Below are positions 6,428-9,319 of a DNA stretch of 64,000 bases, one piece after another. The first letter of the stretch is position 1. Each line of letters begins with the position of its first letter. Under the pieces are notes generated by a model, which did not search any database, was not told the DNA's origin, and saw only the letters and a program-made list of their open reading frames with translations. Source of the DNA: Paraburkholderia aromaticivorans (lineage in GTDB: Bacteria > Pseudomonadota > Gammaproteobacteria > Burkholderiales > Burkholderiaceae); NCBI RefSeq assembly GCF_012689525.1, contig NZ_CP051515.1:124001-188000 (forward strand), given 5' to 3'. Both the position numbers and the translations under genes were made by a program.

Positions 6428-6913
6428 TCACGCGTCGCCCTCGGCAAACTTCTTCAGCGCGTCTCCCGCCAACCGATACCGCACCCATTCGCTTTGCGCG
6501 CTCGCGCCGATCGATTCATAGAAGCCGATGGCCGGCTCGTTCCAGTCGAGCACGCTCCATTCGAAGCGGCCGCAACCGGTGTCGCAGGCAATGCGCGCGA
6601 GGTGGCGCAGCATCTGTTTGCCCGCGCCACTGCCACGCGATGCCGGCGACACGTACAGGTCCTCCAGATAAAGCCCCTGCTTGCCGAGCCAGGTGGAGTA
6701 CGAAAAAAAGTAGACGCAAAAGCCGATGGGCTCCCCGTTCATCTCGCAGATCAGCGCCTTCGCGCTGGAAGCGGCGGAAAACAGGCTCGCTTCGATGTCG
6801 TCGACGGTCGCGACGACTTCGTGCTTCGCCTTTTCGTACACCGCGAGTTCGGTGATGAAGCGAAGAATCAACGCTGCGTCGGCGGCGTAAGCGGGACGGA
6901 TATGGATAGTCAA
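6428..6913 (-). CDS. GNAT acetyltransferase, diamine/thialysine (SSAT-like) type
   Basis: A 161-residue protein close to the spermidine/spermine or thialysine N-acetyltransferase branch. The ELAVYEK helix near residue 24, YSTWLGKQGLYLEDLYV near 75-92 and SRGSGAGKQML (acetyl-CoA pyrophosphate loop) match that branch well, as does WNEPAIGFYESIGA near residue 125. It would acetylate a polyamine or amino acid side-chain amine with acetyl-CoA. It is convergent with the flavin reductase gene, 31 bases apart, and divergent from the ThrRS leader region. Confidence 0.85.
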   Translation of the reverse strand: MTIHIRPAYAADAALILRFITELAVYEKAKHEVVATVDDIEASLFSAASSAKALICEMNGEPIGFCVYFFSYSTWLGKQGLYLEDLYVSPASRGSGAGKQMLRHLARIACDTGCGRFEWSVLDWNEPAIGFYESIGASAQSEWVRYRLAGDALKKFAEGDA

Positions 6914-7038
6914 GGTCAGAGGCTCGATTGATCGGTTGAGTTGCAGACCGAAGTTTCGCGCAGACGCACGGGCTTCGGATCAGACATACATCGTAGCGTT
7001 TAACGTGCCGTTCTGACCAGAGCGCGACAAGAATGCGA

Positions 7039-7068
7039 TTGACGTCCCGTCACAAAATCGTTTACTGT
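7039..7068 (+). promoter_or_regulatory. Candidate promoter of the ThrRS leader
   Basis: TTGACG at 7039-7044 and TACTGT at 7063-7068 are separated by 18 bases. If used, transcription would begin at about 7075, the ATG of the leader peptide, giving a leaderless message. No Shine-Dalgarno sequence precedes that ATG, which fits. The -10 match is modest. Confidence 0.4.
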
Positions 7069-7074
7069 CGATCC

Positions 7075-7161
7075 ATGGACTTCCATTCGATTCCCTTCGC
7101 TGCCGTCACCACCACGACGACCACCTTCGCAGGCGGGTCGTCTGGAGGTTGCGCGCACTAG
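7075..7161 (+). CDS. Threonine-rich attenuator leader peptide
   Basis: A 28-codon frame runs from ATG at 7075 to TAG at 7159-7161. Codons 12-17 (7108-7125) are six consecutive Thr codons (ACC ACC ACG ACG ACC ACC). Just downstream are mutually exclusive RNA hairpins and then a ThrRS gene. This is the standard arrangement for attenuation by ribosome stalling at codons for the amino acid concerned, as in thr, his and leu operon leaders. The peptide itself is probably only a sensor of charged tRNA-Thr. Confidence 0.8.
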   Translation: MDFHSIPFAAVTTTTTTFAGGSSGGCAH

Positions 7162-7187
7162 AAGCAGGACGCTGTGGCAAACCACCA
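7116..7187 (+). promoter_or_regulatory. Pause and antiterminator structures of the Thr attenuator
   Basis: A 7-bp stem pairs 7116-7122 (within the Thr codons) with 7136-7142. An alternative stem pairs 7143-7150 with 7180-7187 (seven of eight positions pair; one A-A mismatch). The alternative would capture the first bases of the terminator 5' arm. A ribosome stalled on Thr codons would block the first stem and favour the second, allowing read-through. Folding was done by eye. Confidence 0.55.
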
Positions 7188-7219
7188 AAGGCCTCGCCGG
7201 AAACGGACGGGGCCTTTGG
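7185..7219 (+). terminator. Attenuator terminator hairpin upstream of the ThrRS gene
   Basis: A perfect 9-bp stem (CCAAAGGCC at 7185-7193, GGCCTTTGG at 7211-7219) encloses a 17-base loop. It lies between the leader stop codon and the synthetase start. The following sequence is only mildly T-rich, so the strength of termination is uncertain. Confidence 0.6.
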
Positions 7220-7279
7220 CGTTTCAGGACCTCCGTTTGCGGCATCCATTCGCGGTAACCGATCAAATGGAGCAAGACT

Positions 7280-8494
7280 GTGAACGACATCGACCATCGT
7301 GTACTAGGCAATAAACTCGACCTCTTCCATCAACAGGAAGAAGGCGCCGGCATGGTTTTCTGGCATCCGCGCGGCTGGGAGCTGTATCGCGTGCTCGAAG
7401 ATTATGTGCGTGCGCGCATGCGTCGCGCAGGTTTTCGCGAGATTCGCACGCCGCAATTGCTGGCGCGCTCGCTGTGGGAAAAGAGCGGGCATTGGGAGAA
7501 GTTCGGCGCGGCGATGTATTCGTTGGCCGATGCAGAAGAAGGCCGCGCGCTGTGTCTGAAGCCGATGAGTTGTCCCTGTCATGTGCAGGTGTTTAATCAG
7601 CGCGTGCGGTCGTATCGCGAGTTGCCGGTGCGGTACAGCGAGTTCGGCGCCTGTCATCGAGACGAACCGTCGGGTTCGCTGGAAGGGCTGAAGCGCACGC
7701 GTGCTTTCGTACAGGACGATGCGCATGTGTTCTGCATGGAGGCTCATATCGAGGCGGAAGTCGGCCGCTTCTGTGCGTTGCTGCGCGCGGTCTACGCGGA
7801 TCTCGGTTTTCCCGAGTTCAAGGTCGCGCTAGCGACGCGGCCGGCCATGCGCGCGGGCGACGATCAAACGTGGGAACGCGCGGAAGATGCGTTGGCGAAC
7901 GCGGCGCGTGCGGCTGGTCTTGAGTTCGACGTGCTCGAAGGAGAGGGCGCTTTTTATGGGCCGAAACTCGAATTTCATCTGATGGACAGCCGCGCGCGGA
8001 GTTGGCAGTGCGGCACGATCCAGCTTGATTTCGTGTTGCCCGAGCGGCTCGACGCGGAGTTCGTCAACGAGCGCAATGAGCGTGAGCGGCCTGTGATGAT
8101 TCATCACGCGGTGCTTGGCAGCATGGAGCGGTTCATCGCGATGCTGATCGAGCACCACGAGGGATGGTTGCCGGTGTGGCTGGCTCCTGAACAGGTCGTG
8201 GTTGCGACGATTAGCGATGCGAATTGCGCTTACGCGCAAGAGGTCATGCAGGCGCTCGATGATGCCGGTGTCAGGGCGGTGCTTGATAGCAGGCCTGAAC
8301 GGCTGGAGAAGAAGATCGTCGATGCGCGCGAGAAGCAGGTGCCGCTTCTGGTCGTGGTGGGTTCGCGCGATGAGCGGGATCGGACGATTAGTATTCGCTT
8401 GCGGGATGGGCGGCAAATGACTTTGTCGTTTGCCGAGGGCGTCGAGTATTTGAGGGTGGCGGCGCGGCCGCCTGTGGTGGCGTCGAGGATTTGA
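7280..8494 (+). CDS. Threonyl-tRNA synthetase paralogue lacking TGS and editing domains
   Basis: A 404-residue class II synthetase; full-length bacterial ThrRS is about 640 residues. Only the catalytic core (about residues 10-300) and the anticodon-binding domain (about 300-395) are present. The zinc ligands align as Cys98 (MSCPCH), His149 (QDDAHVF) and His275 (IHHAVLGS). The motif 2 arginine is Arg127 in CHRDEPSG, so aminoacylation looks possible. The N-terminal TGS and the N2 domain that removes Ser from mischarged tRNA-Thr are missing. The GTG start at 7280 has GGAG seven bases upstream. A Thr attenuator precedes it. A canonical thrS presumably exists elsewhere. Third-position usage shifts toward G/T in the last 200 bases. 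Confidence 0.9.
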   Translation: MNDIDHRVLGNKLDLFHQQEEGAGMVFWHPRGWELYRVLEDYVRARMRRAGFREIRTPQLLARSLWEKSGHWEKFGAAMYSLADAEEGRALCLKPMSCPCHVQVFNQRVRSYRELPVRYSEFGACHRDEPSGSLEGLKRTRAFVQDDAHVFCMEAHIEAEVGRFCALLRAVYADLGFPEFKVALATRPAMRAGDDQTWERAEDALANAARAAGLEFDVLEGEGAFYGPKLEFHLMDSRARSWQCGTIQLDFVLPERLDAEFVNERNERERPVMIHHAVLGSMERFIAMLIEHHEGWLPVWLAPEQVVVATISDANCAYAQEVMQALDDAGVRAVLDSRPERLEKKIVDAREKQVPLLVVVGSRDERDRTISIRLRDGRQMTLSFAEGVEYLRVAARPPVVASRI

Positions 8495-8587: not shown

Positions 8588-9319
8588 CTACCGCACCTCC
8601 GCAAACAACCGCCCCCACCGCCCCAACGGCTCCATATCCACCCCCACCATCCTCAACGCCTTCCAAACCACCGTCGCCACCGTGTCATACGCGGGAACAT
8701 CCGTAGCCGTCTCAAACGCACGCACCAGATGCGCCGCATGCAAATTCGTGCAGAAGGTCGTCACCGCATCCGGTCTCGCGAACGCGGCTTCGCGCATCAT
8801 GATCGAGAGTTGTGTATCGGGCACTTCGGCAAAGCTGAAATTATCCTGCAGCCCCAAATGCCGCTCAGCCACGCATTCGATGCCAAGCTTCTCGTAGTTA
8901 CGCACGATCCGCTGCTGAACATCATCGGTATAAGGCGAAACGAGACCCAATCGCCGTACGCCGGTCTTCTCAAAGATCTCGTTAAGCGCCAGCACTGAAG
9001 TCGTCGCAGGAATGCCCGTCGCCTCCGTAATCTGTCGACACAGCGCCTGATCGCGCTCGAACCCCAGCCACCCCGCCGACGTGCCGCTCCAGCCGATCAC
9101 GTCCACCCGCGCATCGCCCAGTTGACGCGCGGCCGCCAGAATCCGGCTCACATCGAACTGGCCGAGCGCCTGCTCGGACAACGCGATCTCCGTCACCGTG
9201 AAGCGGGCAAAATGCGCGCTGACGCGCGGCAGTTCGCTCAGCATCGCCGCCGTCATCGGCTCGAGCGCGGTGTTCGACGACGGCGTCAGAATACCGAGCC
9301 GGATTCGTTTGCTTTGCAT
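8588..9319 (-). CDS. Asp/Glu racemase superfamily, arylmalonate decarboxylase/maleate isomerase-like
   Basis: A 243-residue member of the superfamily that includes maleate isomerase, Asp/Glu racemase and arylmalonate decarboxylase (AMDase). The PSSNT start is typical of the maleate isomerase branch. The first catalytic Cys is replaced: the segment reads G79-T80-S81, as in AMDase (G74-T75-S76). Tyr130 and Cys190 match the AMDase oxyanion-hole Tyr126 and proton-donor Cys188. One-base proton chemistry such as decarboxylation is therefore more likely than two-base isomerisation (inference). It is the last gene of the eight-gene minus-strand operon, 24 bases after the deaminase gene. Confidence 0.75.
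   Translation of the reverse strand: MQSKRIRLGILTPSSNTALEPMTAAMLSELPRVSAHFARFTVTEIALSEQALGQFDVSRILAAARQLGDARVDVIGWSGTSAGWLGFERDQALCRQITEATGIPATTSVLALNEIFEKTGVRRLGLVSPYTDDVQQRIVRNYEKLGIECVAERHLGLQDNFSFAEVPDTQLSIMMREAAFARPDAVTTFCTNLHAAHLVRAFETATDVPAYDTVATVVWKALRMVGVDMEPLGRWGRLFAEVR

Follow-up and report, generated by a model that had tools for sequence, protein, structure and literature searches.

The window considered here is a stretch of 64,000 nucleotides of the Paraburkholderia aromaticivorans genome (contig NZ_CP051515.1, positions 124,001 to 188,000; coordinates below are those of the window, numbered from its first base). Near its beginning, a 28-codon open reading frame (ORF) with a run of threonine codons lies upstream of a GC-rich hairpin, which is followed by the gene of a short threonyl-tRNA synthetase (ThrRS) (Table 1). 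This leader was examined as a candidate attenuator of the ThrRS gene, together with its relatives in other genomes.

Table 1. Coordinates of the threonine leader and the short ThrRS gene in the window
Feature	Positions	Strand	Description and basis
Promoter-like pair	7039..7066	+	TTGACG 7039-7044 and TTTACT 7061-7066, 16-nucleotide spacer; predicted start at or adjoining the leader ATG; absent from the list of a consensus scan
Leader peptide ORF	7075..7161	+	28 codons, MDFHSIPFAAVTTTTTTFAGGSSGGCAH; probably leaderless
Threonine codon run	7108..7125	+	Six consecutive threonine codons; predicted stalling site
Hairpin 1:2, core	7116..7142	+	GACGACC 7116-7122 with GGTCGTC 7136-7142; minimum-free-energy fold
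Antiterminator 2:3	7132..7198	+	GGCGGG 7132-7137 with CTCGCC 7193-7198, inner helix 7143-7150/7180-7187; covariation and folds
Terminator 3:4	7185..7219	+	7185-7199 with 7204-7219, GAAA (GNRA) loop, one bulged A; covariation; T tract interrupted
Possible Shine-Dalgarno-masking hairpin 5:6	7231..7272	+	CTCCGTTTG 7231-7239 with CAAATGGAG 7264-7272; weak to moderate support
Short ThrRS paralogue	7280..8494	+	404 residues, GTG start; PF00587 and PF03129, TIGR00418, alignment to solved ThrRS catalytic cores, own clade

The short ThrRS gene and its conserved leader

The short ThrRS consists of a class II catalytic core and an anticodon-binding domain only, with neither a TGS domain nor editing domains found by Pfam, and scores 461.9 bits against TIGR00418 (curated cut-off 383.65). 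The same genome encodes a separate full-length ThrRS, 52% identical to the short one over residues 5-380. The catalytic regions of 77 ThrRS (omitting L013, L133 and L222, in which the motif used for cutting was not found) form a tree that splits at one branch, with support of 100/100, into 60 short and 17 full-length sequences. The short clade is made up of alpha- and betaproteobacteria; its sole member labelled otherwise, L062 from a Woeseiaceae bin, has a long branch and almost no upstream sequence, and L036, from a bin labelled Acidocella, falls among Burkholderiaceae, a placement that suggests either transfer or mis-binning. Of 144 genomes of the genus, 55 have a copy that is clearly nearer to the window protein than housekeeping ThrRS is (E ≤ 1e-150; some copies are truncated). 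Among plasmids, 737 records match the short ThrRS of the window, presumably ordinary ThrRS for the most part, and the best places, in Caballeronia, are 72% identical.

A search of named genomes gave 297 relatives, from which 80 loci were retained, 58 with short and 22 with full-length ThrRS. A threonine-rich leader, defined as an ORF no longer than 70 codons with at least four threonines within eight residues, is present in 50 of the 58 short-ThrRS loci and in all 30 short-ThrRS loci fetched from a search within the genus, and was found in none of the 22 full-length loci, which were scanned upstream of each frame. Four of the 58 (L038, L047, L049 and L054; three labelled Ferrovibrio and one alphaproteobacterium) have a related leader, MQSIILTV(A/V)TIKVT..., in which isoleucine, valine and threonine codons are mixed and there is no threonine run. 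Another four have no such leader: L037, L057 and L062, each with no more than 95 bases upstream, and L034, which is truncated at the N-terminus. In the aligned leaders, synonymous changes of threonine codons are visible by eye, the N-terminal halves of the peptides vary in length and sequence, and a Gly-Gly motif behind the threonine run is widely kept. Because a threonine-rich leader is conserved upstream of short-ThrRS loci, the leader signals are more than chance; judged from the sequences compared, the leader is real and conserved.

The gene upstream (6428-6913), which encodes an acetyltransferase domain (Pfam), is on the opposite strand, so the leader needs a promoter of its own. Start signals were compared in 102 leaders, comprising 66 distinct ThrRS leaders and 36 others, including L210 (see below). 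In 86 of them, the sequence TTGAC begins 35 to 37 nucleotides ahead of the ATG of the leader (17 at -35, 58 at -36 and 11 at -37), and the constancy of this distance spans genera and classes. A Shine-Dalgarno (SD) match, taken as a stretch of at least four nucleotides of AAGGAGGTGA, precedes the leader ATG in 7 of the 102 leaders, compared with 62 of the 66 ThrRS starts and about 18% of random positions in the same loci. The nearly fixed TTGAC distance and the usual spacer would place the start of transcription at the AUG, and the threonine leader peptide is probably translated from a leaderless transcript. A preliminary description of this DNA had suspected as much, which the near-fixed distance and the missing SD sequence (95 of 102) now back; the 28-codon frame with six consecutive threonine codons that it reported is present, and its reference to a non-standard ThrRS was right, the enzyme having catalytic and anticodon-binding domains alone beside a full-length ThrRS encoded elsewhere in the genome. 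The promoter-like pair that it proposed is also there, with a -10 element (TTTACT) that is weak; the consensus scan did not list the pair.

The RNA from 7075 to 7225 folds to -71.6 kcal/mol, compared with -52.05 ± 3.97 kcal/mol in shuffles (z = -4.92), and its minimum-free-energy fold holds both a 1:2-type hairpin and the terminator. Covariation was assessed in an alignment of 42 non-redundant ThrRS leaders (A2) with 500 shuffles. In the terminator, 92.3% of alignment cells are paired and 24 are doubly changed (8.7 ± 2.3 in shuffles), and the count of doubly changed pairs was reached in only 5 of the 500 shuffles. In the antiterminator, 84.5% of cells are paired and 30 are doubly changed (14.8 ± 2.9 in shuffles); the six pairs on its outer side hardly vary (98.4%), and the covariation evidence sits in the inner helix. 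When the part from segment 2 to segment 3 was folded, all 66 rows gave the antiterminator core, although the procedure favours the core because the cut ends lie in both arms. In a separate set of leaders preceding hydrolase genes (described below; alignment A3, n = 31), most rows keep GGCGGG/CCCGCC as well as the terminator. At the innermost position of the terminator, 39 of the 42 ThrRS leaders have G-C, whereas 23 of the 31 hydrolase leaders have A-T.

These helices largely coincide with stems drawn in the preliminary description. A stalling-region stem (7116-7122/7136-7142) recurs as the 1:2-type hairpin, and a 9-bp terminator stem (7185-7193/7211-7219) is present and extends to 15 bp with the bulged A. 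A stem proposed to compete with them (7143-7150/7180-7187) exists as the inner helix of the antiterminator; it contains an A-A mismatch, and the core of the antiterminator is formed by 7132-7137 and 7193-7198 instead. The alignment of orthologous loci that had been suggested as a check found the threonine run conserved, with compensatory double changes beyond those of shuffles in both the terminator and the antiterminator.

Proposed attenuation mechanism and its alternatives

The leader is very probably a ribosome-mediated transcription attenuator that senses the charging of Thr-tRNA ahead of the short ThrRS gene. Transcription would start at or adjoining the leader AUG, and the peptide would be translated from the resulting leaderless transcript. 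With charged Thr-tRNA plentiful, the ribosome would pass the threonine codons to the stop codon, making segment 2 unavailable; if the ribosome failed to load, hairpin 1:2 would form and segment 2 would likewise be unavailable. With segment 2 unavailable, the terminator 3:4 would form and no short ThrRS would be made. With Thr-tRNA scarce, the ribosome would stall on the threonine run and cover segment 1, and segment 2, thus freed, would pair with the 5' arm of the terminator, so that RNA polymerase would continue into the ThrRS gene. Ribosome stalling and termination are suggested by the anatomy of the leader, its conservation, the compensatory changes and the promoter-to-ATG distance, and Thr-tRNA charging as the signal is suggested by the anatomy. 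The short ThrRS would be a spare, editing-less synthetase that is off until the housekeeping ThrRS or the threonine supply fails.

Several observations weigh against this mechanism. The 1:2 stem hardly varies in betaproteobacteria, being nearly invariant among their rows, so there is no covariation signal to weigh; in alphaproteobacterial rows, CCCGC/GCGGG is available in its place (by eye). The count of doubly changed pairs in the antiterminator was reached in 199 of the 500 shuffles, and the shuffles ignore relatedness. The consensus scan of the window at its thresholds lists neither promoter nor terminator. The tract after the stem core in the window (TTTGGCGTTTC) is interrupted, and in 50 of the 66 ThrRS leaders the T run is three at longest in the 14 nucleotides past the stem core. 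In equilibrium folds, antitermination opens the SD sequence of ThrRS by more than 0.2 in 9 of 66 rows and closes it in 3 of 66.

The short T runs and the absence of a terminator from the scan would agree with control that is mainly translational, in which the hairpin with its poor T tract fails to terminate, and stalling refolds the RNA and unmasks the SD sequence of ThrRS; we consider this rather improbable. The SD sequence, GGAG, lies inside the 3' arm of hairpin 5:6, which could mask this ribosome site, and segment 5 can alternatively pair with the 3' half of the terminator (4:5), which would be possible only with the terminator unformed. In hydrolase leaders, where CTCC lies just 3' of the terminator, the base before CTCC and the base behind the SD GGAG pair in every one of the 28 distinct cases (T-A in 19, G-C in 9; shuffled mean 15.8). 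In the column test of 5:6, the pattern was present in 42 of 47 loci for hydrolases and 55 of 66 for ThrRS, and after removal of those lacking CTCC (7 and 4) there were 28 and 41 distinct ones; pairing was above that of shuffles at one of seven positions in hydrolase leaders, and P was about 0.03 at two of seven in ThrRS leaders. Complementarity 4:5 of at least 7 bp is present in 71 of 87 distinct loci, compared with a fraction of about 0.32 in shuffles keeping CTCC; the loci comprise 25 of 35 for hydrolases, 30 of 31 for betaproteobacterial ThrRS and 16 of 21 for other ThrRS.

Termination in place of such a mainly translational switch is favoured by the relatives L151 and L194, which have an ordinary T tract (GGGGCTTTTTT) behind the same stem. 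The 5:6 helix of ThrRS leaders is at chance length: in a flank-shuffle test, 3 of 60 reached p ≤ 0.05, which is no better than chance (6 of the 66 had no SD match), and the corresponding numbers were 10 of 45 for hydrolase leaders and 0 of 4 for further ThrRS leaders, 15 of 19 of which were skipped. Equilibrium folding was rejected as proof of an SD switch, since the SD sequence is masked in either state in most loci. Hairpin 5:6 may add translational control to the proposed attenuation; this layer is held tentatively because related sequences are non-independent and the equilibrium folds show no clear switching.

The leader might also not be leaderless, with transcription starting farther upstream and the peptide read from an ordinary start. 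The window does have an in-frame ATG 42 nucleotides upstream, at 7033, and no promoter is scored by the scan, but an ATG at this distance occurs in only 8 of the 66 ThrRS leaders. The conserved leader ATG without an SD sequence, the -35-like box at a near-fixed distance from it and the opposite orientation of the gene upstream, which calls for a local promoter, also make this arrangement quite unlikely.

It is very unlikely that the ThrRS paralogue belongs to a zinc-starvation (Zur) response with the threonine leader secondary, as might be proposed by comparison with the second ThrRS of Anabaena and with some beta- and gammaproteobacterial paralogues; passages of two papers report Zur-regulated ThrRS paralogues (PMC2770081, PMC4787780). 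The whole window has no match to one Zur-box-like palindrome pattern with up to three mismatches allowed, and the active-site metal ligands of the short ThrRS look unchanged in the alignment. Finally, it is scarcely credible that the small ORF acts as a peptide itself, the RNA structures being by-products, for although action in trans is reported for leader peptides of Sinorhizobium (PMC7298713) and the Gly-Gly motif is widely kept, the two glycine codons themselves make up the antiterminator arm GGCGGG, and the N-terminal halves differ from leader to leader, yet the RNA helices covary.

Related leaders and a possible link to ThrRS inhibitors

A covariance model (R1) built from the leader has two strong matches in the genome of the window, the leader itself (122.4 bits) and a second one (57.3 bits) that has a different leader peptide and lies before a DUF2917 gene. 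At E ≤ 0.001, the model has matches in 133 of 299 genomes belonging to the family, which represent 12 of 25 genera; in one further genus within this class, which we take to be Pseudomonas, 74 of 149 genomes match at E ≤ 1e-4. Some of these matches lack a threonine run. It also matches 66 of 398 genomes of the phylum, many of them weakly. An automatic tally of 132 loci comprised 46 hydrolases, 22 short ThrRS, 3 MFS transporters, 3 monooxygenases, 2 full-length ThrRS, 12 unclear cases and 44 without a threonine-run leader, the last being GC-rich hairpins that include the DUF2917 and DUF1127 groups. This tally was corrected in that L162, counted as a full-length ThrRS, is a hydrolase, and L121, L127 and L143 are short ThrRS. 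Newly fetched loci of the other genus were hydrolases in 28 of 29 cases and an MFS transporter in one.

Closely similar threonine-run leaders precede genes for an isochorismatase-domain hydrolase (Isochorismatase, PF00857, in L134 and L193), MFS transporters (MFS_1, PF07690, in L145 and L228), an ABM monooxygenase (ABM, PF03992, in L152) and one full-length ThrRS. Against NCBIfam, the hydrolase and MFS proteins have only subthreshold matches and the ABM protein has no match. The hydrolase resembles solved isochorismatase-family structures, and we know of no substrate for it. The MFS genes of L144, L145 and L228 keep a ThrRS-like stretch at the N-terminus (MMDDCDRRVSG..., MDDFDHRALRNKLDL) behind the threonine leader, as if the leader and the start region had been captured together. 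In L152, L157 and L158, the threonine leader is followed by a small ABM-domain monooxygenase-like protein.

Other relatives depart from the threonine run. In L114 of the same genome (C2:2656870-2656994), a related hairpin leader with the peptide MLTHITIANAITHPKRAIIGWPLGVRAR precedes a DUF2917 protein (Pfam), and such pairs, with no clear single-residue run, seem recurrent in the family (L161, L167, L171, L172, L176, L181, L186, L188 and L189, by eye). In one alphaproteobacterial-looking genus, six loci (L195, L196, L197, L199, L200 and L202) have a conserved leader peptide with an ending like MTR..(W/R)AV.GV.R and the same terminator design, followed by a DUF1127 protein in L199 (Pfam) and L200 (by eye). 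The model also recovers, at 33.5 bits, L210 of another gammaproteobacterium, a leader rich in threonine and isoleucine before an amino-acid-kinase/ACT-domain gene, which is the classical place of threonine attenuation. A weak match (33.9 bits), L208, is a leader rich in the same residues, MLKTQIIITPKTTRLRGTLRVCAI; the gene behind it encodes a semialdehyde dehydrogenase (Pfam).

The full-length ThrRS behind a threonine-run leader (L133/L222) has TGS, SAD, core and anticodon domains (Pfam) and reads GAFYSPK where others read GAFYG; among the matches, 139 have Gly and 2 have Ser at this site, both of the latter being one gene fetched twice. ObaO is described as an obafluorin-immune ThrRS (PMC11252418, PMC10619133), and according to the former paper ObaO proteins have Ser at the position equivalent to Gly463 of E. 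coli ThrRS, a change that confers resistance to obafluorin and borrelidin (PMC11252418). Mainly because the L133/L222 ThrRS carries this Ser, the leaders are suspected of being possibly a response to ThrRS inhibitors. A point against this link is that a second ObaO-like ThrRS (L227; two were found in 299 genomes), also with Ser at the site, has no threonine-run leader in the 400 bases upstream. Obafluorin-type resistance of the window enzyme by the published residue is unsupported, Gly being kept (AFYG), and the Asn and Met substitutions of ObaO were rejected as diagnostic, the solved ThrRS 6vu9 having Asn and Met at the aligned sites.

In its widest form, which we regard as possible but doubtful, the proposal is that leaderless threonine-run attenuators scattered across alpha-, beta- and other gammaproteobacteria, and standing before several unrelated genes, constitute a regulon that responds when Thr-tRNA charging fails by activating defences against ThrRS inhibitors, namely the editing-less ThrRS, the ObaO-like ThrRS, the MFS pump and the isochorismatase-domain hydrolase. 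Each leader would be a chain of alternative helices (1:2, 3:4 and 5:6 when off, 2:3 and 4:5 when on) acting on both transcription and translation. If the inhibitor response were true, it would offer a sequence-based route to genes acting on natural products that target ThrRS, the hydrolase first among them.

Elsewhere in the window, a gene on the opposite strand (8588-9319) that faces the ThrRS gene encodes a protein resembling arylmalonate decarboxylase and Asp/Glu racemases (PF17645). The sole match of the window at Rfam gathering thresholds is a C4 antisense RNA (RF01695; 31978-32069, + strand, 61.5 bits), which we take to suggest prophage or plasmid-type sequence nearby.

Comparison with known systems

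The leader of the gammaproteobacterial thr operon (thrL; RF00506) has a threonine-rich peptide, overlapping helices 1:2, 2:3 and 3:4, and a terminator before the gene; the window leader has such a peptide and predicted helices and terminator of the same kind. It differs in preceding a synthetase instead of a biosynthetic operon and in being probably leaderless, and the Thr_leader model RF00506 scores only 15.1 bits (E = 2.2 over 321 bases; gathering score 55), aligned over 7085-7223. In Sinorhizobium meliloti, the 5' end of the trpL leader RNA (rnTrpL) coincides with the leader ATG, as part of PMC7298713 states. The predicted start of the window transcript is similar; the codons there are those of tryptophan and the gene is trpE(G), and the likeness noted here is one of design.

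A spare ThrRS is also found in Bacillus subtilis, whose second ThrRS gene, thrZ, is controlled by a T-box and induced when tRNA-Thr is uncharged. The T-box reads the tRNA directly, whereas the window leader would do so via a translated threonine run; the T-box RNA model has no match at the gathering threshold in the window, nor is it among the five matches at E ≤ 10 in the leader region. Synthetase paralogues of bacilli, hisS*/hisZ, are predicted to be controlled by a leader peptide, according to passages of PMC2965389; these concern histidine and Firmicutes, and the passages do not describe a leaderless transcript (PMC2965389). ThrRS T2 of Anabaena is a duplicated ThrRS under Zur control that keeps its N-terminal domains, according to part of PMC4787780. 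Like T2, the window enzyme is a duplicated ThrRS in which editing is poor or absent, and unlike it lacks the N-terminal domains. Editing-less ThrRS are also known from archaea. The L133/L222 ThrRS is like ObaO in having Ser at the site aligned with E. coli ThrRS Gly463; the short ThrRS of the window has Gly.

Titles and abstract openings among the matches listed in the open literature, subscription journals being mostly outside this scope, mention no threonine leader before a ThrRS paralogue or a hydrolase. Attenuators of proteobacteria are mostly known for biosynthetic operons. The attenuator described here is known in kind and apparently new in its target, in its probable leaderless form for threonine and in its spread over possible defence genes. 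It suggests how a potentially error-prone enzyme may stay silent until needed, and a conserved, probably leaderless attenuator guarding an editing-less synthetase would play the part in these bacteria that T-box control of a spare synthetase plays in Firmicutes.

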